The notes under the pieces: generated by a model
Database searches by the model: none
The model's input: the letters and a program-made list of their open reading frames with translations, nothing else
What the model was told of the DNA's origin: nothing
Shown here: piece after piece, positions 41,245 through 60,804 of the stretch
How positions within the stretch are numbered: the stretch's first letter is position 1
Layout of the letters: every line of letters begins with the position of its first letter
Translations under genes and position numbers: made by a program
Assembly (NCBI RefSeq): GCF_036324365.1
Contig: NZ_CP137080.1
Location: 1-64,000, forward strand
Reading direction: 5' to 3'
DNA: 64,000 bases
Origin: Microbacterium limosum
GTDB lineage: Bacteria > Actinomycetota > Actinomycetes > Actinomycetales > Microbacteriaceae

Positions 41245-43441
<2,197 letters not shown>

Positions 43442-43484
43442 GACCCTCCTGCTCGTCGACGACGGGCCAAGAATACTGGCCCGG

Positions 43485-43490
43485 TAGGAT
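43485..43490 (+). promoter_or_regulatory. Putative -10 box of purA
   Basis: TAGGAT lies 48 nt before the purA ATG in the 97-bp divergent gap to the Pr6Pr gene. Confidence 0.35.
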
Positions 43491-43538
43491 CGACAAGCGC
43501 GTTCTGCGCCCGTCCCCCACCCATGAGGAGCCCTCCAC

Positions 43539-44825: not shown

Positions 44826-44827
44826 CC

Positions 44828-46018
44828 GTGCTGCTCTGGCTCGGCGGCTGGGGCGCGGCGATGGACTCCGCCGCCGAGGGCATCGGGGTGCTCGCGGCCG
44901 GTGAGGCGGATGCCGGGACGGCGGGCGGCCCGCTCGGTTTCGTCGGCACGGCGGCGCGCGCCGAGTCCCCGTCGTGGCTGGCCGCGCACCCCGTGCGCGA
45001 CGTCGTCTACGCGGCCCTCGAGAGCGAGGGCCGCGTGCAGGCCTTCCGCCGCACGGACGAGGCGAGCCTCGCGCCGCTCGGCCGCCCGGTCGAGGTGGGC
45101 GAGGCCGTCTGTCACGTCGCCGTGTCGCCGGATGCCGGGTTCCTCGTCGCGACGTGCTGGGGCGACGGCCGCGTCGTGCGCGTGGCCCTCTCCCCCGAGG
45201 GAGCGCCCGGCGATATCGCGGCGGCCGCCGCCGCGACGGATCCGCATGCGCCGGAACGCGCCGATCGGGCGGATGCCGCGGCATCCACCGGCCCCGCCGA
45301 CATCGACCTGCGCGCCGCCGTCCGCGCCCTGCGCGAGGCCGCAGGGGAGGAGTACGCGCACCTCGTCCCCGCGATCGACGAGCCCGCGGATCATCCCGGC
45401 TCCCCGCAGACGCAGGAGCGCGTCTCGCGGGCCCACGCCAGCTTGTTCCTCCCTGACGGGCGCATCGCGACGACCGACCTCGGCTTCGACCTCGTGCGCA
45501 TCTGGCGCCGCGGCACCGACGGGCTGCGCGCCGACCACGAGGTCGTCCTGCCCGCGGGCTCGGGACCGCGGCACCTCGTGTGGCACCCGAGCGGCCATGT
45601 CTACGTCGTGACGGAGTTCTCACGCGAGGTGTTCGTGCTCGCGGCCGACGAGACGGGACGGTGGCGGCTCGTCGCGGGAGCCGCGGCATCCGCGGCATCC
45701 CTCCCCGACGACACCGGCGCCGAGATCACGCTCTCCCGCGACGGGGAGTACGTCTATGCGGGCCTGAGGGGCAGCAACACGATCGCCGTGCTGCGCGTGC
45801 GGGGCGGTGGCGAGTCGCTCGCCCCGGTGGCCCTCGTCGATGCCGGGGTCGACTGGCCGCGCCATCACCTCGTGGTGCGCGACACGCTGCTCGTGGCCGG
45901 TCAGCGCTCCAACGACGTGGTGTCGATGAGCCTCGACATCCGCACCGGCGTGCCCGGGCGCGTGCGCCATCGCACCGCGGCGCCGTCGCCGACGCGGCTG
46001 CTGCCCGCACGCCCCTGA
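44828..46018 (+). CDS. Lactonase-family beta-propeller protein
   Basis: The 396-residue product resembles the lactonase (PF10282, YbhE/Pgl) family, seven-bladed propellers that include 6-phosphogluconolactonase. Recognisable blades include ESPSWLAAHPVRDVVYAALE, RAHASLFLPDGRIATTDLGF, GSGPRHLVWHPSGHVYVVTE and GAEITLSRDGEYVYAGLRGS. An Ala/Asp-rich insert (about residues 135-185) is unusual. GTG start 2 nt after purA stop suggests co-transcription; a functional link to purA is not obvious. Confidence 0.82.
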   Translation: MLLWLGGWGAAMDSAAEGIGVLAAGEADAGTAGGPLGFVGTAARAESPSWLAAHPVRDVVYAALESEGRVQAFRRTDEASLAPLGRPVEVGEAVCHVAVSPDAGFLVATCWGDGRVVRVALSPEGAPGDIAAAAAATDPHAPERADRADAAASTGPADIDLRAAVRALREAAGEEYAHLVPAIDEPADHPGSPQTQERVSRAHASLFLPDGRIATTDLGFDLVRIWRRGTDGLRADHEVVLPAGSGPRHLVWHPSGHVYVVTEFSREVFVLAADETGRWRLVAGAAASAASLPDDTGAEITLSRDGEYVYAGLRGSNTIAVLRVRGGGESLAPVALVDAGVDWPRHHLVVRDTLLVAGQRSNDVVSMSLDIRTGVPGRVRHRTAAPSPTRLLPARP

Positions 46019-47181: not shown

Positions 47182-47493
47182 GTGAGCGAATCGGTGACCG
47201 GGAACGAGGAGGCGCGCGCCGAGCTGCTCCGGCTGCGCGCGAGCATCGACAACATCGACGCGGCGCTGGTGTACATGCTGGCCGAGCGGTTCCGGTGCAC
47301 GAAGCAGGTCGGCGTGCTCAAGGCCACCCACGAGATGCCCCCCTCCGATCCCGCCCGCGAGGAGCACCAGGTCGCCCGGCTCCGCCGGCTGGCCCTGGAC
47401 GCCGACCTCGATCCCGCCTTCGCCGAGAAGTGGTTCAACTTCGTCGTCGCCGAGGTCATCCACCACCACGAGCAGGCGGCCAACGGGCGCTGA
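47182..47493 (+). CDS. Chorismate mutase (AroQ class)
   Basis: Chorismate mutase converts chorismate to prephenate for Phe/Tyr synthesis. The 103-residue, all-helical protein fits the short AroQ type: ELLRLRASIDNIDAALVYML, ERFRCTKQVGVLKATHEMPP, and the C-terminal HH-rich helix. Catalytic Arg residues in LLRLRASID and AERFRCTKQVG are present. It is monofunctional, with no periplasmic signal. The catabolic cluster starts after a 279-bp gap with no clear gene in it. Confidence 0.88.
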   Translation: MSESVTGNEEARAELLRLRASIDNIDAALVYMLAERFRCTKQVGVLKATHEMPPSDPAREEHQVARLRRLALDADLDPAFAEKWFNFVVAEVIHHHEQAANGR

Positions 47494-47772
47494 GGCTCCG
47501 CACCCGCTCTGCATATCGGCGCCCGCCCACTCGGGCGACCGCAGTGAGCCACTGTCCGCCGGTCCGATCGCCAGACGCCGGATGTTCCGATGAGCGAGAC
47601 GCTTGCCGTCCGTATCGATCAGCGAGACGGGCCCGTGACGACGGAACGCGCCTCCAGTAACGTCCCGAGCCAGTTGGGCGCCCGCGGACCATCCCGGACG
47701 CCGTTGTCGAGCGATGAGGCTCCGGTGACCGAACCCTCCCGCTCGTCCCGAAACGAGGAAACGAGGAAACGG

Positions 47773-49152
47773 ATGGGATCGCTGACCGAGGCCGTGAAGA
47801 AGGCCGGAAGCCCAGTGGAGCTGCTCCGCAATTCGACGGCGAGCCCGCAGGTCGTGCCGATCGAGGTGCCCCGCGAGTACACCAACTGGGAATCGGAGCA
47901 GCTCGCGTGGCACACCACGTGCGGACTTCTCGACCAGAGTCACCACATGGTGACCATCACGCTCGAAGGGCCGGACCTCGTGCCGTTCCTGGCGCGCATC
48001 GGCATCAACACATTCGCCAACTTCGGCGTCAACCGCGCGAAGCAGCTCGTCGCGTGCTCCCCCGATGGCTTCCTCATCGGCCAGGGGATCCTGTTCCGCA
48101 TCTCCGAGGAGAAGGCGATCCTCGTCGGCCCGTGGGGCGTCATGGACTGGGTCGAGTATCAGTACGCGATCACCCCGAACAGGCTCCGCTTCCGCCGCGA
48201 GGGCACCTCGTTCTCGCGTGCAGGGGACCCCGAGTACTTCCGCTACGAGGTGCAGGGACCCACCGCGCCCGACGTCGTCCGCGACTTGCTCGGGGGCGAG
48301 CTCCCCGAGCTCGGCTTCTTCCACATGTCTCAGGCGAGCGTCTACGGCCGGGAGATCACCTTCCTCCGGCACGGCATGGTCGGCCAGCCCGGCTACGAGA
48401 TCTTCGGCAAGTGGGAGGACAAGGACGTCGTCACGCGTGCCCTCCTCGCCGCCGGCGAGAAGCACGGGATGACTCGCACGGGCGCCTACGCCTACTTCAC
48501 CACCGCTGTCTACTCGGGATACCTGCCGGGCGTCCTGCCCGCGATCTACACGAGCCCCGAGCTCGCCGACTACCGTGACTGGCTGAGCGATCGGTCGTTC
48601 GAGGCGACGGCGCCGCTCGGCGGCAGCTTCTTCTCCGACAACGTCGAGGACTACTACCTCACCCCGTTCGCGCTCGGCTACGACCGAGCGCTGAAGTTCG
48701 ACCACGACTTCATCGGCCGCGAGGCGCTGCAGAGGATGGTCGACGACGGCGTCCCGGCCCGGAAGAAGAAGGTCACGCTGATCTGGAACCCCGACGACGT
48801 CGCATCGATCTATCGCTCGTGGTTCAACGAGGGCGAGAACGCGAAGATGCTGCAGCTGCCCGGCGGACCCGGCTACACGACCTTCCGATACGACTCGGTG
48901 CGCGCCGACGGGGTTCACGTCGGGACCTCGGGATACCCGGGCGCGGCGTCGATCTACCGGAAGGTGCTCTCGGTCGCGATCCTCGACAGCGAGTACGCCG
49001 TCGAGGGGCGAGAGCTGACTCTGCTGTGGGGCGAGGAGCCGAACTCGGGCAAGGCCCGCGTGGAGAGCCACCGCCAGAAGGAGATCCGCGTCACCGTCGC
49101 GCCCGCGCCTTACAGCGACTACGCGCGGACCGACTACCGCACGAAAGCGTGA
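47773..49152 (+). CDS. Tetrahydrofolate-dependent aryl ether O-demethylase (LigM/DesA-like, GcvT fold)
   Basis: The 459-residue product is close to LigM (vanillate/3-O-methylgallate demethylase) across its length, for example GGSFFSDNVEDYYLTPFALGY and KFDHDFIGREAL against [21 protein letters not shown] and KFDHDFIGRDAL in LigM. Such enzymes move an O-methyl to tetrahydrofolate; SesA, from the same fold, opens methylenedioxyphenyl rings. Aligned by eye: Gln55 and His58 match LigM Gln57/His60, and Tyr241 matches Tyr247, but Val28 replaces Tyr31 and Pro120 replaces Arg122, which binds the vanillate carboxylate. A non-carboxylated aromatic is therefore likely. AGGA lies 7-10 nt before the ATG; an upstream ATG at 47590 adds 61 non-conserved residues. 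Confidence 0.87.
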   Translation: MGSLTEAVKKAGSPVELLRNSTASPQVVPIEVPREYTNWESEQLAWHTTCGLLDQSHHMVTITLEGPDLVPFLARIGINTFANFGVNRAKQLVACSPDGFLIGQGILFRISEEKAILVGPWGVMDWVEYQYAITPNRLRFRREGTSFSRAGDPEYFRYEVQGPTAPDVVRDLLGGELPELGFFHMSQASVYGREITFLRHGMVGQPGYEIFGKWEDKDVVTRALLAAGEKHGMTRTGAYAYFTTAVYSGYLPGVLPAIYTSPELADYRDWLSDRSFEATAPLGGSFFSDNVEDYYLTPFALGYDRALKFDHDFIGREALQRMVDDGVPARKKKVTLIWNPDDVASIYRSWFNEGENAKMLQLPGGPGYTTFRYDSVRADGVHVGTSGYPGAASIYRKVLSVAILDSEYAVEGRELTLLWGEEPNSGKARVESHRQKEIRVTVAPAPYSDYARTDYRTKA

Positions 49153-49156
49153 CGAG

Positions 49157-49184
49157 ACCGGCGCCGCCTTCGGGCGGCGCCGGT
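49157..49184 (+). terminator. Rho-independent-type terminator with UUCG tetraloop
   Basis: A perfect 12-bp GC-rich stem (49157-49168, ACCGGCGCCGCC, with 49173-49184) closes a C(TTCG)G tetraloop and is followed by TTCCCTTTCC. It starts 4 nt after the demethylase stop and ends 44 nt before the next ATG. It should end or attenuate transcription between the demethylase and the phosphotransferase genes. Confidence 0.8.
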
Positions 49185-49296
49185 TTCCCTTTCCACCCCA
49201 TCCAGAGATGACAAAGGAGTTATCAGACATGACCATCGAGAGTTTCGAGATCCCGTCCTCGGTGACGACGCCGAGGGCGCGGAGGGCTGGGAGCGG

Positions 49297-51051
49297 ATGT
49301 ACCCCGCGTACATGCGCTTCTCGCCCGAGAACCGTGATGACGAAGACGCCACCCTGTGGTTCTGGGATTCCATGCATCACATGGAGGCGCTTCCGCCGTT
49401 CGACATGATCAGCCACGAGGCATGGGGGGTGGGCCTCGGCGAGTTCAACTCGCGCATCTTCCCGGTGCCGCCCGCATACGGGATCGACCAGCGCATCCTC
49501 AACGGCTACCTGTACATCCGTCCCGTCGCGGTGAGCGACGTCGAATGGATCGGTGAGCGGGCGCGGCTGTTCGCAGAGCGAGCCACCTACTACTACGAGA
49601 ACTGGGACGACCTGTTCGAGAAGTGGAAGGAGAAGATGGAGGCGGTCATCCGCGAGGTCGAGGCGCTCGAGATCCCCGATCTCCCGCGGCTCGAAGACGA
49701 GAAGATCGTTACCGGCGCCACGGGAGTCAGCAGCGGGCATCTCCTCATCGGCGCGTACGACAAGCTGATCGAGAGCATCTTCCTCGCCTACCAGTACCAC
49801 TTCGAGATGCTGAACCTCGCGTACGCCGCGTATCTCAACCTCCTCACCTTCTGCAAGGAGTCCTTCCCGGGCATCAAGGACGAGACGATCGTCCAGATGG
49901 TCGCGGGCAACGAGATCCTGTTCTTCCGTCCGGACGACGAGATCAAGGCCCTCGCCCGTCTCGCGATCGAGCTCGGCATCCACGAGGAGCTCACCGACGG
50001 CGCCGACGACCCGCAGGCCACGATCGCGCGGCTCGCGGGGACGCCCGAGGGCGACCAGTGGATCGCGCGGCTCGAAGCGGCCAAGGAGCCGTGGTTCAAC
50101 TTCTCCGGCGGCACGGGTCTCTACCACCACGAGCGTTCGTGGGTCGACGACCTCACGGTCCCGTGGGTCGCGCTCACCGGGTACATCGGGAAGCTCCTCG
50201 CAGGCGAGAGCATCGACCGCCCCACCCAGGAGATCCTCGCCCGCCGCGAGCGGGTCACGAGCGAGTACCGCAATCTGCTGCCCAACGACGAGGAACGCGT
50301 CATCTTCGACCAGAACGTCGACCTCGCGAGGCTCGTCGATCCGTATGTCGAGGACCACAACTTCTACATCGAGAACTGGTTCCACACGATCTTCTGGAAC
50401 AAGATGCGCGACGTCGGCGACCGACTGGTGACCGGCGGGTTCATCGAGGACCGCGAGGACGTGTTCATGCTGAACCGATGGGAGGTCGGCCAGGCGCTCT
50501 TCGAGATGGTGTTCGGCTGGGCGACCGGCGCGCGCAAGCGTCACACCCCGTGGAAGGCCGAGATCTCGGACCGCAAGCGGATCCTCGCCGCCCTGCGAGG
50601 CTGGACTCCGCCGCCCGCGCTCGGCCCGATCCCGGATGAGATCTCGGAGCCGTTCACGGTGCTGCTGTGGGGCATCACGACCGACCGGATCAAGGTCTGG
50701 CTGGGCGACGGCGACGACGATCCCGATGCGCTGCGGGGCGTTCCGGCGTCGCCGGGCGTGCGAGAGGGCACCGCACGCGTGATCCGCGACGCGAGCCAGC
50801 TGAGCGAGGTCGTTCAGGACGAGATCCTGGTCTGCCCGATCACCGCGCCCGCGTGGGGCGCGATCTTCAACAAGATCCAGGCCGCCGTCTCCGACATCGG
50901 CGGCATCATGAGCCACGCGGCGATCGTGAGCCGCGAGTACGGCCTGCCCGCGGTCGTCGGGACGGGCAACGGCACCACGAAGATCAAGACGGGAGACCGG
51001 ATACGGGTCGATGGGGACACGGGACTGGTGACCATCCTGGAGCGCGCGTAG
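49297..51051 (+). CDS. Phenylphosphate synthase alpha-like subunit (swivelling-His phosphotransferase)
   Basis: The 584-residue open frame resembles the alpha subunit of phenylphosphate synthase over its length (MYPAYMRF; EFNSRIFPVPPAYGIDQRIL; NGYLYI; RSWVDDLTVPW) and ends with the PEP-utilising mobile domain. The phospho-His lies in GGIMSHAAIVSREYG (residue 540 of this frame). It has no PEP-binding barrel, so phosphate from the beta partner would go to another acceptor. The real start is probably the ATG at 49229 (AAAGGAG 9 nt upstream): it encodes MTIESFEIPSSV, and reading on in the -1 frame gives DDAEGAEGWER-MYPAYMRF, so one base seems missing near 49262-49264. Alternatively translation starts at 49297 (GGAGG at 49281-49285). 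Confidence 0.85.
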   Translation: MYPAYMRFSPENRDDEDATLWFWDSMHHMEALPPFDMISHEAWGVGLGEFNSRIFPVPPAYGIDQRILNGYLYIRPVAVSDVEWIGERARLFAERATYYYENWDDLFEKWKEKMEAVIREVEALEIPDLPRLEDEKIVTGATGVSSGHLLIGAYDKLIESIFLAYQYHFEMLNLAYAAYLNLLTFCKESFPGIKDETIVQMVAGNEILFFRPDDEIKALARLAIELGIHEELTDGADDPQATIARLAGTPEGDQWIARLEAAKEPWFNFSGGTGLYHHERSWVDDLTVPWVALTGYIGKLLAGESIDRPTQEILARRERVTSEYRNLLPNDEERVIFDQNVDLARLVDPYVEDHNFYIENWFHTIFWNKMRDVGDRLVTGGFIEDREDVFMLNRWEVGQALFEMVFGWATGARKRHTPWKAEISDRKRILAALRGWTPPPALGPIPDEISEPFTVLLWGITTDRIKVWLGDGDDDPDALRGVPASPGVREGTARVIRDASQLSEVVQDEILVCPITAPAWGAIFNKIQAAVSDIGGIMSHAAIVSREYGLPAVVGTGNGTTKIKTGDRIRVDGDTGLVTILERA

Positions 51052-51079
51052 CGCCCGGGCCGGTCTGAGAGGAGAAGAC

Positions 51080-52129
51080 ATGAGCGAGCAGATCATCTGG
51101 TTGACCCCCTCCACCCCGCCCGACCCGGCAGTGCTGGGCGGCAAGGGCGTCGGCCTCGTCCGGCTGATCGGATTGGAGGCGCCCGTGCCCTCGGCCTTCG
51201 TGGTGACGACGGGCGCGTACCTCGACCACATCCGCCGGACGGGGCTGGACGAGCGGATCGTGGCGATCTCGAGCGGGGCGGAGTCGGTCGAGGAACAGGC
51301 GCGGGCCTCGCAGGAGATCGAAGAGCTCTTCCTCTCGACCCCTCTCTCCCCCGAGCTCGCGGACGGCCTCCGCGAGGCATACGGGCGGTACGACGACGCA
51401 CCGGTCGCCGTGCGCTCGAGCGCGACGGCGGAGGACACCGCGGAGGCGTCGTTCGCGGGCCAGCAGGAGAGCTACCTGTGGGTCCGCGGCGGCGACTCCG
51501 TGGTCGAGCACGTCGCGAAGGTGTGGGCGAGCCTCTTCACGCCGCAGGCCATCGCCTACCGCGTGAAGAACGGCGTCGACGTGCGCGAGGTCTCGATGGC
51601 GGTCGTCGTCCAGGAGATGGTCGAGTCGAGCGTCGCGGGCGTCATGCTCACGCTGAACCCGACGACGGGCGACGCGTCGGAGATCTACGTCGAGGCGACC
51701 TACGGGCTCGGGCTCGGCCTGGTCTCGGGCGAAGTCACGCCGGACAGCTTCGGCGTCGACCGGGTGACCCTCGGCTTCCGGTCGAGGGCCGTGGGATCGA
51801 AGGAGAAGGCGTACCGACTCGATCCGGAGGCCGACGAGGTCGTCCTCCGGATCGTCTCGGACGAGGATCGAGCGGTCGCGTGCGTGACCGACGACGAGGC
51901 GCTCGCGATCGCCCGGATGGGCAAGTCGGTCGACGAGCGGCTCGGGTCTCGGCAGGACATCGAGTGGGCTCTCGGTCCCGGCGAACCCGGCGTGCGGGAG
52001 CTGTTCCTGCTGCAGACGCGTCCCGAGACGGTGTGGAGCAACCGTGTCGCCACCAAGCGCGCGCGCGGAGCAACGCCCGTCGACCGCATCCTGGCGATGA
52101 TGCAGACGCCGATGCGCCTGCACGACTGA
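51080..52129 (+). CDS. Phenylphosphate synthase beta-like subunit (ATP-grasp, PPDK/PEP-synthase N-terminal domain)
   Basis: The 349-residue product is the free-standing ATP-binding domain of PEP synthase/PPDK enzymes: LGGKGVGLVRLIGL, AVRSSATAEDTAEASFAGQQ, MVVQEMVES-type segment, LTLNPTTGDASEIYVEATYG and the closing LLQTRPETVW. It would use ATP to phosphorylate the catalytic His of the alpha subunit encoded 28 bp upstream. Length matches the roughly 40 kDa beta subunit of Thauera phenylphosphate synthase. The third, CBS-domain subunit of that enzyme is absent. AGAGGAGA precedes the ATG. Rifampicin phosphotransferases share the domains but as one chain. Confidence 0.87.
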   Translation: MSEQIIWLTPSTPPDPAVLGGKGVGLVRLIGLEAPVPSAFVVTTGAYLDHIRRTGLDERIVAISSGAESVEEQARASQEIEELFLSTPLSPELADGLREAYGRYDDAPVAVRSSATAEDTAEASFAGQQESYLWVRGGDSVVEHVAKVWASLFTPQAIAYRVKNGVDVREVSMAVVVQEMVESSVAGVMLTLNPTTGDASEIYVEATYGLGLGLVSGEVTPDSFGVDRVTLGFRSRAVGSKEKAYRLDPEADEVVLRIVSDEDRAVACVTDDEALAIARMGKSVDERLGSRQDIEWALGPGEPGVRELFLLQTRPETVWSNRVATKRARGATPVDRILAMMQTPMRLHD

Positions 52130-52140
52130 TCCTGCTCGCG

Positions 52141-52172
52141 CCGGCCGGGCTCACTCCGCCGAGCCCGGCCGG
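52141..52172. terminator. Bidirectional terminator hairpin between phosphotransferase beta and iclR genes
   Basis: A perfect 12-bp stem (52141-52152 and 52161-52172, CCGGCCGGGCTC and its complement) with an 8-nt loop lies between two convergent genes and overlaps the last codons of the iclR-type gene. No T-tract. Confidence 0.6.
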
Positions 52173-52960
52173 CCCGGTGCGCCCAGCTGCCGTGACAGCG
52201 CGCGGGCCGCCACGGCGACGGCGGGTCCCATCTTGGTGAGGTCCGTGGAGGACAGATGCACCGATACCGACAGGGCTGCGACGGCGCGGCCGTTCGCGTC
52301 GAGCACCGGAGAGGCGGCGCACCCGACATCCGCGACCGACTCCTCCCGCTCGTATGACAGTCGGTTCATTCGGATCGTGTGGAGCTCGCTGCGCAGGACT
52401 TCCGGGTCGGTGATGGTGCGCGGCCCGAGCGCCGCGAGAGGGGGATCGCCCAGGCGATCGAGTTCCTCCAGCGGCCTGAACGCGAGCAGCACCTTCCCGA
52501 CACCGGTCGCGTGCGCCGGAAGTCGACCGCCGATGCGGGAGGGCAGCGGCGGTGTGAGCTTGCTGCGGAGCCGGTGAACGTAGACGACCTCGGTGCCCTC
52601 CAAGACCGCGAGGTGCACGGTCTGCTTCGTGGCCGACATGAGTTCGTACATGTAGGGCGCTGCAACGCGCCTGAGATCCGTCGTCCGGCTCGCCTGCTGG
52701 CCGAGCTCGAACAGCCGGATCCCGAGGCGGAAGTGGTCCCCGTCGCGCTCGAGGATGCTCTCGTCGACCAGGTCGCGTGCGATCCGCGAGACCGACGCCT
52801 TCGGGATGCCGGTGCGGCGGCTGAGCTCCGACACCGTGAATTCGCTCTCCTCGCGCAGGTAGAGCCGCAGGATCGTGGACACGCGGCTGATCATCGACGG
52901 CATCGTCGTGTCTCGCTCAATGGAACGCATGCGCAGAGTGTCGAGGCCCTGTCGATTCAT
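52151..52960 (-). CDS. IclR-family transcriptional regulator
   Basis: The 269-residue protein has the IclR winged helix (about residues 25-85; FTVSELSRRTGIPKASVSRI) and the effector domain (LPAHATGVGKVLLAF; VADVGCAASPVLDANGRAVA with the conserved loop). IclR regulators often control aromatic catabolism genes. It is divergent from the HAD gene (41-bp gap, containing the palindrome TTCGCGAA at 52980-52987) and convergent with the phosphotransferase genes, so it likely regulates this block. The ATG at 52960 is preferred to a TTG at 52966. Confidence 0.93.
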   Translation of the reverse strand: MNRQGLDTLRMRSIERDTTMPSMISRVSTILRLYLREESEFTVSELSRRTGIPKASVSRIARDLVDESILERDGDHFRLGIRLFELGQQASRTTDLRRVAAPYMYELMSATKQTVHLAVLEGTEVVYVHRLRSKLTPPLPSRIGGRLPAHATGVGKVLLAFRPLEELDRLGDPPLAALGPRTITDPEVLRSELHTIRMNRLSYEREESVADVGCAASPVLDANGRAVAALSVSVHLSSTDLTKMGPAVAVAARALSRQLGAPGRPGSAE

Positions 52961-53001
52961 CGTCAACCCCCCTATCCGATTCGCGAACCCGAGGAGACGT
53001 C

Positions 53002-53844
53002 ATGACCCCCAGCACCCCCGGCCGCCGTGGCTGGATCATCGATGTGGACGGCTGCCTCGTGCGTGCGGCCCGCTACGGCGGCGACGGTGGACAGCCGATC
53101 GAGGGCTCCGCCGAGTTCATCGCGCTCCTCGATCGCGTCGGCGAGCCCTATGTCGTCTGCACGAACGCGTCCGGCAACCCGCCGGACACGTACGCTGCAG
53201 GTCTGCGAGCCGAGGGCATCCCGGTCGACGACGCGCACTTCGAGACGGCGGGCAGCATGACCGCCGATCTCATCGCCCGACGGCATCCCGGGGAGACCGT
53301 CGCCGTCGTCGGCAGCCCCGCGTTCGCCGACACCGTCCGGTCATACGGCGTCGATGTCGCCGTGGGCGAGCGTGCGAGGTCCGCGAGTGTCGTCGCCGTA
53401 GGCGACGGCGTCGAGTTCCGAACGGCCGACCTCGACGCGGCGGCGCTCGCGGTCGACGCCGGGGCAGCCTTCTACAGCACGGTCGGCCAGCGCTGGTTCC
53501 ATGGCGGGATGCAGAAGGGCATCACGAGCTCGGCATTGATCGCGGCCGGCATCGCCTGGACGACGGGGGTGCAGCCGGAGGTCACCGGAAAACCCTCCCG
53601 CGAACTCGGGCTCGCGCTCGCCGCGCGGATGGGAGTGGCTCCAGAGGACGTCGTCGTCGTCGGCGACGCGCTCGCCGAGGTCGAGCTCGCGCGCGTGATC
53701 GGCGGGACGTCGTACCTCGTGCTGACGGGCGGCGTCGACCGCGCGACCGCCGACGCCCTGCCGGCGGCGCGCCGCCCGGACGCCGTCTTCGAGGACATCG
53801 GTGGGGTTCTCGCGCACACCCGGGCGGAACTCGGCGACGTGTAG
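53002..53844 (+). CDS. HAD-IIA family phosphatase (NagD/4-nitrophenylphosphatase-like)
   Basis: The 280-residue protein is a HAD subclass IIA phosphatase: motif I IDVDGCLV (nucleophile Asp), motif II VCTNASG, an alpha/beta cap between, motif III Lys in TGKPS, and motif IV VVGDALAEVE, where the second acidic residue is Glu. Relatives include p-nitrophenyl-phosphatases and sugar/pyridoxal phosphate phosphatases. Next to an aryl-phosphorylating enzyme pair, an aryl phosphate is a reasonable substrate, but this is inference. GAGGAGAC precedes the ATG. Possibly co-regulated by the divergent IclR protein. Confidence 0.88.
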   Translation: MTPSTPGRRGWIIDVDGCLVRAARYGGDGGQPIEGSAEFIALLDRVGEPYVVCTNASGNPPDTYAAGLRAEGIPVDDAHFETAGSMTADLIARRHPGETVAVVGSPAFADTVRSYGVDVAVGERARSASVVAVGDGVEFRTADLDAAALAVDAGAAFYSTVGQRWFHGGMQKGITSSALIAAGIAWTTGVQPEVTGKPSRELGLALAARMGVAPEDVVVVGDALAEVELARVIGGTSYLVLTGGVDRATADALPAARRPDAVFEDIGGVLAHTRAELGDV

Positions 53845-53865
53845 CCGGCCCGTAACGTAACCGCT

Positions 53866-53882
53866 GGCGCATCCCATGCGCC
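53866..53882. promoter_or_regulatory. 7-bp inverted repeat upstream of the araC-type gene
   Basis: GGCGCAT, three bases, then ATGCGCC form a perfect repeat 40 nt before the araC-type start. GTAACGTAAC (53852-53861) just upstream could include its -10 (TAACGT). The repeat may be an operator; this is uncertain. Confidence 0.35.
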
Positions 53883-53922
53883 GGAGGAGATACTGAACGG
53901 TGGGATCGTCGAAGGAGACGAC

Positions 53923-54873
53923 GTGGGACCCGACCCGCTGCAATATCACGTCCTCGCCAGCGCCGACGAAGACGAGCTTCGTGATGCCGGGAGCCGGATG
54001 TTCTCCCCGCACCGGCTGAGGCTCGGGGCGGGGGAGGCGCGCCTCGGGGCCGTCGATCTCGACGAGCTCCTCATCGGTCGCCTCCGCTACGGCTCCGACG
54101 CCGTGGTCGCGACGGATCCCATCCACTACTACTCCGTGCAGCTTCCGATCACGGGGCGCGGCGGCGCGCGCGTCCTCGACGAGGCGGTCACGATGCGCCG
54201 CGGGCAGGGACTCGTGCTCAATCCCGGGGATGCCGTGGCCTTCGAGCTCGACCGCGACCTGGATCGCATCGCGCTGAAGATCCCGGAGGCGGTGATCACG
54301 CGGCACCTTGCGATCCTGCTCGGGTATCCGGTCGGCGGTCCCCCGCGGTTCCGGCGGTCGTCGGAGTCCCCCCGTTCCCCCTGGGTGTCCGCGCTCTGCC
54401 TCCTCGCGCGCGAGGTCGATCCGTTCGGCACGCACCCGGTGCCTCGACCGCTCGCCGGCCGGGTCGTGGATGCCTTCCTCACGAGCCTGCTTCTCAGCCA
54501 GACGCACGACTGGTCTGCGCGGCTGCACGACGCACCGCCCTCGGAGCGCAGCGCGGTGACATCCGTGGTCGACCGAATCGAGGCGGACCCGCAACTGCCC
54601 TGGTCGCTCGCCACCCTGGCCGCGGAGGCGGGCGTCGGCGGGCGGTCGCTCCAGATCGCCTTCCGGCGCGAGCTCGGGGTATCCCCGATGCGGTACCTCC
54701 GCAACGTGCGTCTGCGCAGGTGCTATGCGGCGCTGCGCGACCCCGCGTTCGCGGGCATCTCGGTCTCCGACGTGGCGGCGGCGAACGGGTTCACCCATCT
54801 CGGCCGTTTCGCGCAGGTCTTTCGCGACACGTACGGGCTGCTGCCGTCGGAGGTGCGCCGCTCCGTGCGGTAG
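53923..54873 (+). CDS. AraC-family transcriptional regulator
   Basis: The 316-residue protein has an N-terminal AraC_binding_2-type effector domain (about residues 20-190; VQLPITGRGGARVLDEAVTM) and the two-helix-turn-helix C-terminal domain: WSLATLAAEAGVGGRSLQIA and VSDVAAANGFTHLGRFAQVF. The related domain is found in activators of benzoate, phenol and xylene catabolism (XylS/FeaR type), so it is the likely activator of the meta-cleavage operon that begins 107 bp downstream. GTG start with GAAGGAGA 5-12 nt upstream. Confidence 0.92.
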   Translation: MGPDPLQYHVLASADEDELRDAGSRMFSPHRLRLGAGEARLGAVDLDELLIGRLRYGSDAVVATDPIHYYSVQLPITGRGGARVLDEAVTMRRGQGLVLNPGDAVAFELDRDLDRIALKIPEAVITRHLAILLGYPVGGPPRFRRSSESPRSPWVSALCLLAREVDPFGTHPVPRPLAGRVVDAFLTSLLLSQTHDWSARLHDAPPSERSAVTSVVDRIEADPQLPWSLATLAAEAGVGGRSLQIAFRRELGVSPMRYLRNVRLRRCYAALRDPAFAGISVSDVAAANGFTHLGRFAQVFRDTYGLLPSEVRRSVR

Positions 54874-54980
54874 CCGGAGGCGACGGTCGAGACCGGGGGC
54901 TGTCTCGGTGAGCGGATCGCCTCCTTGGCGGATTCGGCGGCGGACGCGACAGTGGCATCACCCGACAGCGAGGTCGCACT

Positions 54981-55754
54981 ATGACAGCCCCACTCCTCTC
55001 CGATACCGCCGAACGTCTCCTGGCCGCGCGACGTGATCGTCGACCGATCGCCCCGCTGGGTCTGGACAGCATCGACGCGGCGTACGGGGTCCAGCTGGAG
55101 CAGGTCGAGGTGTGGCGGGCGGCGGGCGGCCGCATCGCCGGGTACAAGGTGGGGCTCACGTCCGCGGCGATCCAGCGCCAGCTCGGCGTCGATAGCCCCG
55201 ACTTCGGTCATCTCCTCGAGGACGACTTCGTGCTCAGTGGCGCGCCGATCTCGGCGGACCGCTTCATCCAGCCGCGCGTCGAACCCGAGATCGCCTTCAT
55301 CCTGGGGCGCGATCTCGCCGGACCCGGGGTGACCGCCGCGGACGCCGTGCGCGCGATCGACGCCGCCGTCGCCTCCCTCGAGATCATCGACTCCCGCATC
55401 GCCGACTGGAAGATCTCCCTCACCGACACGATCGCCGACAACGCCTCCGCCGGGGGCGTCGTGCTCGGCAGCACGCCCCGTTCGCTGGACGGCGTCGATC
55501 TCCGCCTGACCGGCGCCGTCCTGCGGCGGAACGGCCGGATCGCGCACACGGGAGCGGGGGCCGCCGTGCTCGGATCGCCGATCTCGGCACTGGTCTGGCT
55601 CGTCAACACGCTCGGCGCCCTCGGCACCACCATTCCGGCCGGATCGGTCGTGCTTCCCGGCGCGGTAACCGCCGCCGTCTCCGCGGCTCCCGGCGACATC
55701 ATCACCGCTGAATTCGCCGGGCTCGGCTCCGTCACGGCGCGGTTCGCCGGCTGA
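54981..55754 (+). CDS. 2-keto-4-pentenoate hydratase family protein
   Basis: The 257-residue product belongs to the 2-oxopent-4-enoate hydratase/oxalocrotonate decarboxylase family. Conserved elements are GYKVGLTSAAIQRQLGV, PRVEPEIAFILGRDL (metal-binding Glu pair), AVASLEIIDSRIADW and ADNASAGGVVLG. In the meta pathway this enzyme adds water to 2-oxopent-4-enoate to give 4-hydroxy-2-oxovalerate, the substrate of the aldolase encoded downstream. Divergence from the second family member at 57766-58551 suggests the two have separate steps. It is the first gene of the operon, 107 bp after araC. Confidence 0.9.
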   Translation: MTAPLLSDTAERLLAARRDRRPIAPLGLDSIDAAYGVQLEQVEVWRAAGGRIAGYKVGLTSAAIQRQLGVDSPDFGHLLEDDFVLSGAPISADRFIQPRVEPEIAFILGRDLAGPGVTAADAVRAIDAAVASLEIIDSRIADWKISLTDTIADNASAGGVVLGSTPRSLDGVDLRLTGAVLRRNGRIAHTGAGAAVLGSPISALVWLVNTLGALGTTIPAGSVVLPGAVTAAVSAAPGDIITAEFAGLGSVTARFAG

Positions 55755-55769
55755 ACCGAAAGGACACAT

Positions 55770-56711
55770 GTGGATACGGGGACGCGGCGACCGCGGGTCG
55801 CCATCGTCGGTCCGGGCAACATCGGGACCGACCTGCTCATCAAACTCATCCGCCGCGACGTCTTCGACGTGCGCTACATGGTCGGTGTCGACCCCGAATC
55901 CGACGGTTTGGCGCGCGCGCGACGACTCGGTCTCGAAGCGTCGGCGGGCGGTGTCGACTGGCTTCTCGCGCGGCCTGAGCTGCCGGACATCGTCTTCGAG
56001 GCGACCGCCGCCGGGCCGCATCTTGCCAACGCGCCGCGCTACGCCGAGGCGGGAATCACCGCGATCGACCTGACGCCCGCCGCGGTCGGGCCGTTCGTGT
56101 GCCCGGCGGTGAATCTCGACGTACACCGCGACGCCGACAACATCAACATGATCACGTGCGGCGGCCAGGCGACCATTCCGATCGTGCACGCGATCAGCCG
56201 GGTCACGCCCGTTTCCTACGCCGAGATCGTCGCGTCGATCTCGTCGCGCTCCGCCGGTCCCGGCACGCGCGCCAACATCGACGAGTTCACCGCCACGACC
56301 GCGCGGGCGATCGAGCAGATCGGCGGCGCACAGCGCGGAAAGGCCATCATCATCCTCAACCCCGTCGATCCGCCGCTGGTCATGCGCGACACGGTTTTCG
56401 CCGCGATCGGCGGGGATGCCGACCGCGATGCGATAACCGCCTCGATCCACGACGCCGTGGCCGCCGTACAGGAGTACGTGCCCGGCTACCGGCTGAAGGC
56501 CGACCCGCAGTTCGACGACCCGCATGAGCGCTGGCACGGCTATGGCCGCGTCGCCGTGTTCCTCGAGGTGGCCGGCAACGGCGACTACCTGCCGCCGTGG
56601 GCGGGCAACCTCGACATCATGACCGCCGCCGCGAACCGCGCGGCCGAGCTCCTGATCGGGGAGCCCGAGACCGGTGCGGCGCACCCGCGCGGGATGGAGG
56701 CCCCGGCGTGA
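55770..56711 (+). CDS. Acetaldehyde dehydrogenase (acylating)
   Basis: DmpF-type enzyme: converts the acetaldehyde channelled from the aldolase to acetyl-CoA with NAD and CoA. The 313-residue protein has the NAD motif [11 protein letters not shown] at the N terminus, catalytic Cys130 in [11 protein letters not shown], and the conserved [13 protein letters not shown] helix ([20 protein letters not shown]). I chose the GTG at 55770, with AAAGGA 6-11 nt before it; an ATG at 55768 is in another frame. Its stop overlaps the aldolase start by 4 bp, matching their tight complex. Confidence 0.95.
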
Positions 56712-57769
56712 ACGAATCGCCTCGCGTCCGGATCACGGACACCACGCTCCGCGACGGTTCGCACGCCGTCGCCCACCGGTTCACCGTCGAGCAGGTCACG
56801 GCGGTGGCTGCCGCGCTCGACGCCGCCGGCGTCGATGTCATCGAGGTGACGCACGGCGACGGACTCTCCGGCTCCTCGTTCAACTACGGCTTCAGTGCCG
56901 TGCCGGAGCTCGAGCTCATCGCCGCCGCCGCCGGCTCGGTGAAGCGGGCGCGGATCGCCGCGCTGCTCCTGCCCGGGGTCGCGACGGTGAAGGACCTGCG
57001 GGAGGCGGTCGCGGCGGGCGCCACGTACGTACGGATCGCGACCCACTCGACCGAGGCCGACGTCAGCATCCAGCACTTCGGGGCGGCGCGCGAGCTCGGT
57101 CTGCAGACGGCCGGGTTCCTCATGCTCTCGCATCGGACGCCACCCGGCGAGCTCGCGCGGCAGGCGCGCATCATGGCGGATGCCGGATGCCAGTGCGTCT
57201 ACGTCGTCGATTCCGCCGGCGCGCTGCTGCCCGACGGCGTGCGCGACCGGGTCACCGCGCTCGTCGACGAGCTCGGCACGGACGTCGAAGTGGGCTTCCA
57301 CGGACACATGAACCTGGGCCTCGGCGTCGCCAACTCGCTCGCGGCCTACGAGGCGGGAGCGCGCCGCATCGACGGTACGCTGCGGGCGCTCGGTGCCGGT
57401 GCCGGCAACACCCCGACGGAGGTCCTGGTAGCCGCCTTCGACGCTGCGGGCGTGCCCACCGGCGTCGACCTCCCCTCGATCCTCGTGGCCGCGGAGGACG
57501 TCGCCGCACCGCTCATCCCGACCGTGCCGAGGATCGACCGCGACGCGATCGTTCAGGGCCGGTACGGCGTCTACAACTCGTTCCTCCTGCATGCGCAAGT
57601 CGCGGCGCAGCGCTACGGCGTGCCGTCCCACGAGATCCTCCGCCGTGTCGGGGAGGCCGGTTACGTGGGCGGTCAGGAGGACATGATCATCGACGTCGCG
57701 ATCGAGCTCGCGGCCGAGACCGGCCCTCCCGATGCGAACAATCCCGACGCGATCGGAGTGACACGATGA
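56708..57769 (+). CDS. 4-hydroxy-2-oxovalerate aldolase
   Basis: DmpG-type aldolase: splits 4-hydroxy-2-oxovalerate to pyruvate and acetaldehyde. The 353-residue TIM-barrel begins [17 protein letters not shown], with the catalytic His/Arg and metal Asp in TTLRDGSHA, a second metal pair in [13 protein letters not shown], and the C-terminal communication domain that contacts the dehydrogenase. GTG start, overlapped by 4 bp on both sides with acetaldehyde dehydrogenase and the decarboxylase genes. Confidence 0.95.
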
Positions 57770-58551
57770 GCATCCAGGACATCTCCTCCGCGGTCGCGGC
57801 ACTCCGCCGCGCGGAGGCGACGCGGACGCCCCGGGGCCGTCTCACCCGAGAGTGGGAGGGTCTCGACCTCGACACGGCCTACAGGGTGCAGAACGCCCTC
57901 GTGGAGGAGCGTGTCGCCGCCGGCGAAACCGTCGTCGGCATCAAGCTCGGTCTGACCAGCCGCGCCAAGCAGGAGCGGATGGGGATCTCCTCCCCGCTGA
58001 CCGCAGTGCTCACCGACGCATACATCCTCCCGGCCGATGTCCCGGTGCCGCTCGACCGGCTCATCCAGCCGCGGGCCGAACCCGAGCTCGTCTTCGTCAT
58101 GGGACAGCCGCTCCGCGGTCCCGGGGTGACGGCCGCCACGGCGCTCGCCGCCGTGGACCGGGTCTACGGCGGGTTCGAGATCATCGACAGCCGGTACGTC
58201 GATTACGACTTCGGGCTCCCGGACGTCGTCGCCGACAACGCGTCATCCGCCTTCTTCGTGGTCGGCGGCGTCGGCCGGCGACCCGACGAGCTCGATCTCG
58301 CGCTCGAAGCCGTCGTCCTCTCGGTGGGCGGCGACGTCGTCGACACCGCCACGGGCGCGGCCGTGCAGGGGCACCCGGCCGAGGCGCTCGCGCTCGCAGC
58401 GAACGCGCTGGGCGCGCGCGGGCAGGAGATCCCGGCGGGCGCGATCGTGCTCACGGGGGGTCTCACCGACGCCATCGCGCTCACGCCCGGCGCATCTCTC
58501 GCGGCGGAGTTCACTCACCTCGGCACCGTCCATCTGAGCGTCGGGCGGTAG
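57766..58551 (+). CDS. 2-oxo-3-hexenedioate (4-oxalocrotonate) decarboxylase-like protein
   Basis: The 261-residue protein is a second member of the hydratase/decarboxylase family ([52 protein letters not shown]). The motif around RAKQERMG resembles DmpH/XylI decarboxylases more than DmpE hydratases, hence the call; specificity is not certain. It would convert 2-oxohex-3-enedioate to 2-oxopent-4-enoate. The ATG overlaps the aldolase stop by 4 bp. Confidence 0.82.
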
Positions 58552-58602
58552 CACCGCCGCGCCGTATTCACCCGCCACACCGCATTCGAAGGAGAACGCA
58601 CG

Positions 58603-59655
58603 ATGAGCGCTTCAGCGCACGACTTCCCGGAGCCGATCTTCGACGTCGCCGACCTGTCGACGTTCGAGCTCTTCTCTCCGGTCGTCGACGAGACCGTCTG
58701 GTTCTTCACGAACCTGCTCGGCATGATTGAGACCGCCCGTTCGGGCGACTCCGTCTTCCTGCGCGGCTACGAGGATCCGTACGCGCACTCCCTGAAGATC
58801 ACCCATCGCGAGAAGCCGGGGATGGGATACGCGGGCTGGCGGGCGACGTCGCCGCAGGCCCTCGAACGCCGCGTGGAGGCCATCGACCGGTGCGGGCTCG
58901 GGCGGGGCTGGGTGGAGGGCGAGGTCGGAGTCGGCCCCGCGTACGAGTTCACGACGCCCGATGGATCGGTGCAGCGCATCAACTGGGAGGTGGAGTACTA
59001 CCGTCCCGAGAAGGATCAGCGCAGCGTCGTGCTGAACCGCGTGCAGCGCCGCCCGCTCTCCGGGGTCCCGGTGCGGGCGCTCGACCACGTCAATCTGCTG
59101 TCGCTGGATGTGACCGCGAACAAGCGTTTCTTCGCCGAGCAGCTCGGGTTCAAACTGAGCGAGCACATCGTTCTCGGCGACGACGTGGAGGCCGGTGCGT
59201 GGCTGCGCAGCATGACGCGATCCCACGACGTGGCGCTCGTGAAGGATGCCGGAGGGGGCGGCCGCCTGCACCACGTCGCCTTCCTCTACGGCAACACGCA
59301 GCACCTCATCGATGCGTGCGACGTGCTCACCGACCACGGCATCGAGTTCGAGGCCGGTCCCGCCGCGCACGCGATCAGCCAGGCGCAGTTCATCTATGTG
59401 TTCGAACCCGGCGGCAACCGCATCGAGCTCGTCGGCACGCCGGGGTATCAAGTCACCGACCCGTCGTGGGAGCCGGTGCGCTGGGCTCAGGACACGATCG
59501 ACGACGCGATCATCTGGTACGGCTCTCCGCTGCCCGCCGAGTTCGACACCTACGGCACGCCCCACTCCGGGCCCACCGCCTACCGCACCCCGAATCGCTA
59601 TGTCACCGCGGAGGCCGGCATGATTCTCCGCGCCGACCCGCCCGCGCGGTTCTGA
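58603..59655 (+). CDS. Extradiol ring-cleavage dioxygenase (catechol 2,3-dioxygenase type, VOC fold)
   Basis: The 350-residue type I extradiol dioxygenase has two VOC modules. The iron ligands in the C-terminal module are His162 (ALDHVNLLS), His224 (RLHHVAFLYG) and Glu275 (GGNRIELVGT); the tyrosine in IYVFEP is also conserved. The length and the C-terminal extension (to about residue 350) are closer to the homoprotocatechuate-type subgroup than to XylE (307 residues). It would open a catechol next to its hydroxyls to a muconic semialdehyde. GAAGGAGA precedes the ATG. The catechol is presumably supplied by the demethylase system upstream. Confidence 0.92.
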   Translation: MSASAHDFPEPIFDVADLSTFELFSPVVDETVWFFTNLLGMIETARSGDSVFLRGYEDPYAHSLKITHREKPGMGYAGWRATSPQALERRVEAIDRCGLGRGWVEGEVGVGPAYEFTTPDGSVQRINWEVEYYRPEKDQRSVVLNRVQRRPLSGVPVRALDHVNLLSLDVTANKRFFAEQLGFKLSEHIVLGDDVEAGAWLRSMTRSHDVALVKDAGGGGRLHHVAFLYGNTQHLIDACDVLTDHGIEFEAGPAAHAISQAQFIYVFEPGGNRIELVGTPGYQVTDPSWEPVRWAQDTIDDAIIWYGSPLPAEFDTYGTPHSGPTAYRTPNRYVTAEAGMILRADPPARF

Positions 59656-59669
59656 GGATCGAGGCCGCC

Positions 59670-59885
59670 ATGCCGTTCGTCCAGATATCCATCGCCGAAG
59701 GGCGAGATCCCGAGCAGATCCGTGCGCTCATCGGCGGCGTCACCGACGCCGTCGCCGAGTCCCTCGCGGCGCCCGTCGAGAGCATCCGCGTGATCGTCAC
59801 GGAGGTGCCGTTGACGCACTGGGGCTCCGGGTCCGTCACCCTCGCCGAGAAGCGGGGCGCGCCGCCGCCGCCGGTGACCGGCTGA
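59670..59885 (+). CDS. 4-oxalocrotonate tautomerase-like protein
   Basis: The 71-residue protein begins MPFVQISIAEGRDPEQIRAL, with the catalytic Pro1 exposed after removal of Met and Arg11 in the usual place. It is a little longer than DmpI/XylH (62 residues) because of a C-terminal EKRGAPPPPVTG tail. In the oxalocrotonate branch it isomerises 2-hydroxymuconate. It starts 14 nt after the dioxygenase stop and ends the operon. Confidence 0.88.
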   Translation: MPFVQISIAEGRDPEQIRALIGGVTDAVAESLAAPVESIRVIVTEVPLTHWGSGSVTLAEKRGAPPPPVTG

Positions 59886-59910
59886 CGGCGCCCGCGTCAG
59901 GATCCGGCCG
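59859..59910. other. Convergent gap between tautomerase and purU
   Basis: Tautomerase and purU converge with only about 25 bp between their stops. I see no strong terminator here. Confidence 0.3.
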
Positions 59911-60804
59911 TCACGAGAAGACGATGGTCTCCCGGCCGTTGCGGATGACGCGGTCTTCGCAGTGCGCGAGCACGGCGCGCGAGAGCACCTCGCGCTCGAC
60001 GTACGCGCCCTTGCGCTGGAGGCCGGCTGCAGAGTCCGCGTGCGTGACGCGGACGACGTCCTGCTCGATGATGGGACCCTCGTCGAGTTCTTCCGTCACG
60101 TAATGGGCCGTGGCGCCGATGAGCTTCACTCCGCGCTCCTTCGCCTTCCGGTAGGGGCCGGCGCCGATGAAGGCGGGCAGGAAAGAGTGATGGATGTTGA
60201 TCACAGGCACCGCGACGTCGCCCAGGAAGGCGGGGCTGAGGATCTGCATGTAGCGCGCGAGCACGACGGCGTCGACGTTTCCGCTGAGCAGCTTCACGAT
60301 CTCCGACTCGGCGTCCGACTTGTCGGGGCCCTGGCTCGGCACGTGGATGAAGGGGATGCCGAAGCTGCGCACATCCTCCGCGACGTTGGTGTGGTTGGAG
60401 ATCACCATCGGCACCGTCATCGGGATCTCGCCGCGGCGGTGTCGCCACAGGAGGTCGAGGAGACAGTGGTCAGACGTCGACGTGAGGATCGCGACGCGCT
60501 TCGGCTGCGAGCGGTCGACGAGACGCCACTGGAGGCCGAGGGTGGTCAGCTCAGCCTCCAGCGACGCCTCCAGCGACGGGCGCATCGCGAAGAACTCGTT
60601 CATGTGGAAGACCGTGCGCTGGAAGAACGCGCCGCCCCCGGGGTCATCGGTGTACTGGTCGAGCGAGACGATGTTCGCTCCGTGTGCCGCGAGGACGCGG
60701 GTGACGGCGGCCACGATGCCAGCGCGGTCGGCTCCGTGGACGATCAGGACGCCGGTATTCGTGCTCGCGGCAGCTTCCCCTCGAGCCTGCGTCGGATCTT
60801 CCAC
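59911..60804 (-). CDS. purU: Formyltetrahydrofolate deformylase
   Basis: PurU hydrolyses 10-formyl-THF to formate and THF, so it resets the folate pool. The 297-residue protein has an N-terminal ACT domain (about residues 18-95; GVLIVHGADRAGIVAAVTRV) and a formyltransferase-like hydrolase domain with NIHHSFLPAF, catalytic His/Asp in ATAHYVTEELDEGPII. In C1-generating catabolism it disposes of surplus C1 units, so it may serve the THF-dependent demethylase, or the glycine betaine system suggested by the downstream ABC gene. Start is GTG. Confidence 0.93.
   Translation of the reverse strand: MEDPTQARGEAAASTNTGVLIVHGADRAGIVAAVTRVLAAHGANIVSLDQYTDDPGGGAFFQRTVFHMNEFFAMRPSLEASLEAELTTLGLQWRLVDRSQPKRVAILTSTSDHCLLDLLWRHRRGEIPMTVPMVISNHTNVAEDVRSFGIPFIHVPSQGPDKSDAESEIVKLLSGNVDAVVLARYMQILSPAFLGDVAVPVINIHHSFLPAFIGAGPYRKAKERGVKLIGATAHYVTEELDEGPIIEQDVVRVTHADSAAGLQRKGAYVEREVLSRAVLAHCEDRVIRNGRETIVFS

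Follow-up and report, generated by a model that had tools for sequence, protein, structure and literature searches.

The first 64,000 nucleotides of the 2.79-Mb single contig of Microbacterium limosum (NZ_CP137080.1, assembly GCF_036324365.1), here called the window, hold a block of twelve genes in which a two-subunit phenolic dikinase, a divergent relative of the tetrahydrofolate (THF)-dependent aryl O-demethylases LigM and DesA, a HAD-IIA phosphatase and enzymes of catechol meta-cleavage are encoded together (Table 1). Comparison with other genomes indicated that this block moved between species as one piece. The reading that we favor, which we hold as nearly balanced but tilting slightly towards doubt, is that the block specifies phosphorylation of an ortho-methoxyphenol, THF-dependent O-demethylation of the aryl phosphate, dephosphorylation and meta-cleavage, with guaiacol or a simple guaiacyl compound as the most likely predicted substrate. 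All of the gene types named in the original prediction for this DNA were recovered at that place by domain searches. The series of steps that it had put forward still appears the most coherent account, because the genes moved together, the nearest relative of the dikinase lies beside an O-demethylase-like Rieske enzyme and a gene resembling catechol 2,3-dioxygenase (C23O), and the pocket of the LigM-like enzyme is altered. Two precedents help this reading. The carboxylase HpeCBA of the Hpe pathway accepts only the phosphorylated compound (the phosphatase of that pathway, HpeD, is NagD-like; PMC9618137). In addition, a THF-dependent relative of LigM demethylates dicamba, in which the methoxy group sits beside a carboxylate and there is no phenol hydroxyl (PMC9404685).

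In the favored scheme, dikinase subunits A and B would pass a phosphate from ATP via His540 to the phenol, giving 2-methoxyphenyl phosphate. The divergent LigM-like enzyme would then demethylate this aryl phosphate, with THF as the methyl acceptor and the phosphate standing in for the carboxylate and phenol of the usual LigM substrates. The HAD-IIA phosphatase would release catechol, which C23O and the downstream enzymes would convert to pyruvate and acetyl-CoA. The host would provide the recycling of one-carbon (C1) THF and probably also the dehydrogenase for the ring-fission aldehyde. We infer the substrate, the order of the steps and the dependence on phosphate; the sequences themselves give the gene families, the co-movement, the division into clades and the altered residues.

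Table 1. Features of the twelve-gene block and its immediate surroundings (positions in the window).
Feature	Position	Strand	Evidence
Transferred unit, 12 genes, ligM-like to tautomerase	47506..59929		blastn vs M. kunmingense
LigM/DesA-like THF-dependent aryl O-demethylase, divergent	47773..49152	+	GCV_T 119 bits
Hairpin then T-rich stretch, between ligM and dikinase genes	49154..49187	+	fold -37 kcal/mol, z -6.0
Phenolic dikinase subunit A (PpsA/CreH/HpeH-like), substrate-binding and swivel domains, predicted catalytic His540	49297..51051	+	PEP-utilizers 78.7 bits
Phenolic dikinase subunit B (PpsB/CreI/HpeI-like), ATP-grasp	51080..52129	+	PPDK_N 303.9 bits; top PDB match 9goj
IclR-type regulator, start codon uncertain	52151..52966	-	IclR_C, HTH_IclR
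HAD-IIA (NagD/HpeD-like) phosphatase	53002..53844	+	Hydrolase_6, Hydrolase_like; p-nitrophenyl phosphatase matches; DVD motif, residues 14-16
AraC-type regulator	53923..54873	+	AraC_binding_2, HTH_18
2-oxopent-4-enoate hydratase-like	54981..55754	+	TIGR03220 251 bits, under cut-off 408.8
Acylating acetaldehyde dehydrogenase	55770..56711	+	AcetDehyd-dimer 207 bits
4-hydroxy-2-oxovalerate aldolase	56708..57769	+	TIGR03217 473 bits, above cut-off 286
4-oxalocrotonate decarboxylase-like	57766..58551	+	TIGR03218 237.5 bits, under cut-off 350.6
C23O-like extradiol dioxygenase	58603..59655	+	TIGR03211 291.7 bits, slightly under cut-off 320.2; Glyoxalase
4-oxalocrotonate tautomerase-like	59664..59885	+	Tautomerase 57 bits
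Formyl-THF deformylase PurU, neighbor outside transferred unit	59911..60804	-	TIGR00655 338.7 bits

The evidence for a single mobile unit came from Microbacterium kunmingense (G051, contig NZ_JAKNUS010000001.1), to which the unit aligned by blastn over 12,426 bp at 97.7% identity. The sampled chromosomal flank (window 25000-44900, 19.9 kb) matched the same genome as 15 pieces of 66-93% identity, the longest being 10.1 kb at 75%, and the long pieces all lay on contigs other than that of the block. This difference between block and flank indicates that the block moved as a unit, and the genes therefore form a coherent set beyond chance proximity, as had been proposed. The upstream end in M. kunmingense retains a piece (47261-47442, 94%) of the gene upstream of the block in the window, which is chorismate-mutase-like and broken as judged by eye. 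Similarity stops at 59929, with about the last 20 bases of purU matched. Based on these remnants at both ends, the probable origin of the unit is a chromosome with the same arrangement as the window, and purU is a neighbor. The span given in the original prediction takes in purU; since this gene lies outside the shared unit, we rejected PurU as a pathway member.

A third copy was found on a contig of a metagenome-assembled genome (L029, G751), with 98% identity over 5.1 kb up to the contig end and an IS30-like transposase (by eye) upstream. A search with the block DNA showed that 3 of 366 Microbacterium genomes carry it. Between the window and M. kunmingense, the ratio of nonsynonymous to synonymous substitution rates (dN/dS) was 0.02-0.31 for 11 genes, the IclR gene being left out and ppsA, the subunit A gene, being taken from its called start at 49297; the aligned parts had neither stops nor gaps.

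Judged by sequence, subunits A and B are a member of the two-component phenolic dikinases. Subunit A scored 783.6 bits against NF006153 (cut-off 578), and its motif SDIGGIMSH, which ends at His540, fits the phosphohistidine motif T/SxxGGxxxH defined for phenolic dikinases (PMC12167813), with Met two residues ahead of the His. It aligned along its whole length to 78 non-copy loci at 45-56% identity, and over residues 1-582 at 45-51% to relatives linked to P450, biotin carboxylase and UbiD genes. The subunit B gene is adjacent. Subunit B is the sole PPDK_N match of the genome (E up to 0.001). HpeHI is an ATP-dependent phenolic dikinase with acetovanillone, vanillin and cresol as substrates (PMC12167813), of which acetovanillone and vanillin are ortho-methoxyphenols (PMC9618137, PMC12167813). 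The same two sources place the two-component dikinases CreHI and HpeHI in aerobic pathways. The statement in the original prediction that this phenylphosphate-synthase-like family is known from anaerobic phenol carboxylation was thus too narrow.

Swivel and ATP-grasp domains are also common to rifampin phosphotransferase and phosphoenolpyruvate (PEP) synthase, which would be in keeping with a phosphotransferase whose substrate is of another kind altogether, for example an antibiotic or a pyruvate analogue. We regard this as scarcely credible, given the two-subunit split and the 45-51% identity along the whole of subunit A to phenolic-dikinase-type relatives. A rifampin-type or PEP-synthase function was rejected, as the matches of those models to subunit A were confined to its C-terminal part or the vicinity of it. 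Carboxylation by a UbiD-type or biotin-dependent enzyme was also rejected: Pfam searches found no UbiD-type carboxylase among the 12 block genes, as had been predicted, and no biotin carboxylase of the HpeCBA type. There was likewise no CoA ligase, cytochrome P450 or HD phosphohydrolase among the 12.

To place the dikinase among its relatives, contigs were searched with five subunit-A sequences, which returned 367 relatives; locus counts refer to the best 80 of these. Partner types were called by tblastn with bit-score thresholds of our own choosing, and many of the 80 loci are cut by contig ends, such that the partner counts are lower bounds. A P450 together with an HD-type gene was present at 47 loci (8 of them also with biotin carboxylase and 1 with molybdenum hydroxylase), a Rieske oxygenase at 14 and molybdenum hydroxylase at 5 further loci. 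Biotin carboxylase alone was found at 3 loci, UbiD at 3, HD alone at 1 and no partner type at 5. A wide co-occurrence of LigM and dikinase was rejected, as LigM was found at 2 of the 80, both of them the other copies of the block. Markers for C23O and aldolase were present at 8 of the 14 Rieske loci and at one of the two LigM loci (the other is shortened by a contig end), and at none of the 64 that remained. Of the other dikinase loci that were grouped, 16 have a gene in the similarity group of the IclR regulator; the group of the HAD-IIA phosphatase had members at 11 other loci, every one beside biotin-carboxylase parts. For the other Microbacterium dikinases, 9 of 13 further subunit-A matches were opened (including L025), and all nine had P450 and HD neighbors.

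The clades of subunit A appear to follow the partner enzyme. A 56-row tree, which excluded six short subunit-A calls and four loci without a called subunit A, required 15 changes of partner label as compared with 35.6 when labels were shuffled, and a 62-row tree, from which row L043_5 was also dropped, required 16 as compared with 40.8. Rows labeled CRE were thinned in both trees (to 8 in the second), near-copies add to the clustering, and some labels are rough, since L102 ('none') and L131 ('unk') are Hpe-type and L073 ('MO') has a P450. The three block copies formed their own clade (support 100), and in the 62-row tree they grouped with loci L030 and L169 at an SH-like approximate likelihood-ratio (SH-aLRT) support of 99. 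The L030 gene (9143-11035) is a lone subunit A, 56% identical to that of the window and beside arabinose-type sugar genes (by eye), and no subunit B was found across its 16.5-kb contig.

The nearest non-copy subunit A found was that of L169, with 63% identity over 386 columns of a gene left partial by a contig end. The gene order there is C23O-like fragment, histidine phosphatase (PF00300), Rieske oxygenase, subunit A. The Rieske protein matched LigXa_C with 48 bits (cut-off 27) and VanA_C with 22.7 bits, slightly under the cut-off of 23.5; both models are named after O-demethylases, and it is by family name only that they bear on the reaction of the L169 enzyme. Among 17 genomes of the family and 27 of the class of G271, no further L169-like loci were found. 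A broader proposal, which we consider possible but distinctly doubtful, is phosphate-assisted O-demethylation, in which a methoxyphenol would be phosphorylated for the benefit of the demethylase, and two unrelated demethylases, a THF-dependent LigM relative here and a LigXa-like Rieske enzyme in other Actinomycetota, would each have been fitted into one design of kinase, demethylase, phosphatase and C23O. The nearest relative in this proposal is one short locus, L169, and the design is that of the wider Rieske group. Through the comparison with the Rieske-type loci, the idea is open to testing in two unrelated enzyme families.

Several other dikinase neighborhoods were observed in the course of these searches. 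A recurrent cluster in Actinomycetota combines the dikinase with a Rieske oxygenase, in most cases with a HAD or histidine phosphatase, and in many with extradiol dioxygenases and meta-cleavage genes (L041, L043, L049, L051, L053, L060, L065, L074, L077, L093, L095, L096, L099, L107, L169, L174 and L176; the LigXa_C scan covered L169 alone). The first extradiol enzyme of L077 scored 361.8 bits, above the C23O cut-off of 320.2. At eight loci (L031, L033, L034, L036, L038, L045, L172 and L173) the dikinase lies beside molybdenum hydroxylase subunits, and five of these have dihydroxypyridine dioxygenase- and maleate isomerase-like genes (by eye), although Pfam gave no match for the first 110 residues of one gene of each kind. 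Such loci possibly serve the breakdown of phosphorylated hydroxypyridines. On the haloarchaeal plasmids L122 and L123, a divergent dikinase is near annotated parts of a ring-hydroxylating dioxygenase, an aldehyde dehydrogenase and a metallophosphoesterase. This arrangement may be an archaeal counterpart of the kinase-based logic.

The LigM-like enzyme of the block aligned to LigM of SYK-6 (PDB 5x1i) over residues 5-456 with 343.9 bits and 41.0% identity over 446 columns. It scored below the equivalog cut-offs of both DesA (475.4 bits, cut-off 800) and LigM (421.5 bits, cut-off 580), and it formed its own long branch among 45 sequences. It deviated at 7 of the 91 columns that are at least 95% conserved in 42 relatives. 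In the residue comparison, which has 45 rows with one gene counted twice and uses LigM numbering, the equivalents of His60 and Tyr247 are kept (H58 and Y241 in the window; His and Tyr in 45/45 rows), as is that of Gln57 (Gln in 44/45). His60 and Tyr247 reportedly have catalytic roles (Harada 2017); they act on the methoxy oxygen, and Arg122 lies near the vanillate carboxylate. Other positions are replaced: Trp256 (45/45 rows) by Tyr250 in the window clade and, in the block enzyme, Pro219 (43/45) by Lys, Arg/Lys245 (35/45) by Tyr and Glu253 (41/45) by Tyr.

Genes for a dmp-type catechol meta-cleavage pathway, namely C23O, hydratase, aldolase, acetaldehyde dehydrogenase, decarboxylase and tautomerase, are all in the block. 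By strict equivalog cut-offs, the aldolase was above and C23O, hydratase and decarboxylase were below. In two genomes of another Actinomycetota family, a relative of the window C23O (43-44%) and a LigM-like gene were also observed some 5 kb apart (L127:2070-3038 and L128:14499-15470, in G157 and G187). The host genome has four other LigM-like genes elsewhere. Of the further LigM-like genes seen at L108:3300-13900 and L109:7400-10600, one group lies by an extradiol dioxygenase-like gene and one by metF- and purU-like genes, as judged by eye. Linkage of LigM-like genes to metF and purU, or to metF alone, is annotated in other bacteria and one archaeon.

The original prediction had suggested looking for the same gene types together in other genomes. 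Among 148 relatives, LigM was present in 24, subunit A in 6 and both in 3 (G000, G051 and G128), the two genes being 2.7 Mb apart in G128. In a sample of 396 Actinomycetota genomes, 15 had LigM (E up to 1e-40), 23 had subunit A (E up to 1e-60) and 8 had both (G000, G157, G172, G187, G220, G253, G263 and G478). Loci from 13 of the 22 other genomes with subunit A were opened. Apart from the window, linkage within about 11 kb was seen in 3 genomes, all of which have an Hpe-type cluster. The three stretches (L164-L166) come from a single further family; the distance from LigM to the dikinase is 7-11 kb, and all three contain both dikinase subunits, three carboxylase parts, an HpeD-like phosphatase and a CoA ligase, with an HpeF-like gene in one of the three as fetched. 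On a Thermomicrobium roseum plasmid, LigM and dikinase are about 12 kb apart and share no operon. For LigM, co-occurrence stood for the three near-identical copies of the block only, and Hpe-type clusters account for LigM near a dikinase in the three genomes of the other family, a result close to the absence of co-occurrence that the original prediction had regarded as refuting it.

Based on the Hpe-type set at L164-L166, the LigM there could have vanillate to work on. A similar route could be imagined for the block, such that phosphorylation and dephosphorylation yield a vanillate-type acid that LigM then demethylates. We consider this very improbable, because the 12 genes include no carboxylase or CoA ligase and a C23O-like dioxygenase is unsuited to protocatechuate. 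In addition, the three LigM genes by the Hpe-type clusters, which serve as a control, retain D106, R122 and W256, whereas that of the block retains none of these residues.

Several observations weigh against the favored reading. The linkage of LigM and dikinase in the manner of the block is confined to its three near-identical copies, in one lineage. The L169 locus is a 4.6-kb fragment from one genome. The closest solved structures to the L169 Rieske enzyme are unnamed Rieske proteins and a putative phthalate dioxygenase, and with such relatives the enzyme may hydroxylate instead. Compared with the two other copies, ppsA of the window is shifted in frame by one base within its first ~25 codons (49229-49300), with the result that the called start at 49297 is an internal ATG. 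In L028 and L029 the gene is intact and reads through from a start codon that has, as judged by eye, a ribosome-binding-site-like sequence ahead of it, and the frameshift in the window may be a sequencing error or decay. A 2-hydroxymuconate semialdehyde dehydrogenase is missing from the block itself, and the 14 matches to this enzyme in the genome all fell short of the cut-off (best 454 of 693 bits).

The confinement of the LigM link to three near-identical copies, together with the variety of partners with which dikinases pair, also speaks for independent modules that travel together by chance or through selection for several substrates, the phenol of the dikinase being unrelated to the LigM-like enzyme. 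This we think quite unlikely, since the boundaries of the unit match the pathway genes, the reading frames have been kept (at the dN/dS given above for the 11 genes computed), and the block combines kinase, middle enzyme, phosphatase and ring cleavage.

The LigM-like enzyme raises further difficulties for the favored reading. Asp106, present in 45/45 rows, is Gln104 in the window clade. It aligns with the second Asp of the T-protein IIDD motif, and its loss may mean that the chemistry is altered, impaired or lost; it could also relieve charge repulsion against a phosphate. Position 122 is Pro in the block enzyme, which is not unique (Arg in 22/45 rows, Pro in 2/45), and no phosphate-binding residue could be assigned in the enzyme. 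The changes of D106 to Gln and W256 to Tyr would also suit an enzyme that cleaves a methylenedioxy ring or another ether, phosphorylated or free, in the manner of SesA of Sinomonas, a THF-dependent relative with a catechol product. This seems improbable in that LigM came closest among the solved structures, and DesA and LigM among the family models.

The strong hairpin between ligM and the dikinase genes (-37 kcal/mol, z -6.0) is a last point of this kind, since the genes on either side of it may be transcribed apart. It is probably a terminator or attenuator, although a scan for consensus promoters and terminators did not pick it up and otherwise gave no lead; a PHROGs search with one short frame of the window gave none either. 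Separate transcripts would suit a scheme in which a free methoxyphenol is the substrate of the LigM-like enzyme, and the role of the dikinase and phosphatase is to trap or scavenge phenols, or to process another compound that feeds the catechol pathway. The loss of Arg122 would fit any substrate that lacks a para-carboxylate. Trapping is also a published proposal for why such kinases exist (PMC12167813). We judge this scheme unlikely, if less so than the others, because the phosphatase would reverse the trap at once unless the phosphate were needed in between. The middle enzyme of the Hpe pathway, moreover, uses the phosphorylated compound only (PMC9618137), and the nearest dikinase relative likewise lies amid a Rieske enzyme and a phosphatase.

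If the favored reading is correct, a need of the methyl transferase for the phosphate would be a chemical reason for the initial phosphorylation, and a guaiacol-type lignin product could be demethylated without oxygen or reductant at that step. Why phenol breakdown starts with phosphorylation was called unclear in the 2025 HpeHI study (PMC12167813), and the known microbial route from guaiacol to catechol uses P450s (PMC6411806). In a literature search that covered neither preprints nor most subscription papers, we came upon no account of an aryl phosphate being demethylated with THF, and none of a dikinase with LigM, or with a LigXa-like Rieske enzyme, and C23O.

The closest known system is the Hpe pathway of Rhodococcus rhodochrous GD02 (HpeHI, HpeCBA and HpeD), which, like the block, has a two-component dikinase and a NagD-like HAD phosphatase. 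It is aerobic, its middle enzyme acts on an aryl phosphate, and it handles the ortho-methoxyphenol acetovanillone (PMC9618137). The Hpe pathway differs in that its middle step is a carboxylation leading to vanillate, whereas the block has a LigM-like demethylase and catechol meta-cleavage and no carboxylase. The logic of phosphorylating, transforming and dephosphorylating a substrate is known from Hpe and is also that of the Cre pathway of Corynebacterium glutamicum, which employs the P450 CreJEF and CreD. The Cre pathway resembles the block in its homologous two-component dikinase and starts with the phosphorylation of 4-cresol (PMC9618137). The cre-type loci of our survey (47/80), so labeled by their P450 and HD-type gene, differ from the block, which has neither marker.

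The phenylphosphate synthase and carboxylase of anaerobic phenol degradation in Thauera and Azoarcus have a homologous two-subunit phosphotransferase with the same A-B gene order. UbiD-type carboxylase genes follow there (as in Azoarcus KH32C), whereas the block has none and its ring-cleaving family needs oxygen. LigM, DesA and the dicamba demethylase share the GCV_T family and His60/Tyr247 with the block enzyme, which differs from them in its long branch, its replacements of D106, R/K245, E253 and W256, and its scores below the equivalog cut-offs. Finally, the Rieske-type dikinase loci (14/80, with L169, L174 and L176) resemble the block in having a dikinase, in most cases a phosphatase gene, and C23O-like genes (8/14). 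They differ in having a Rieske oxygenase in place of the THF enzyme, a histidine phosphatase and another type of HAD, and dikinases that, with the exception of L169, belong to another clade.

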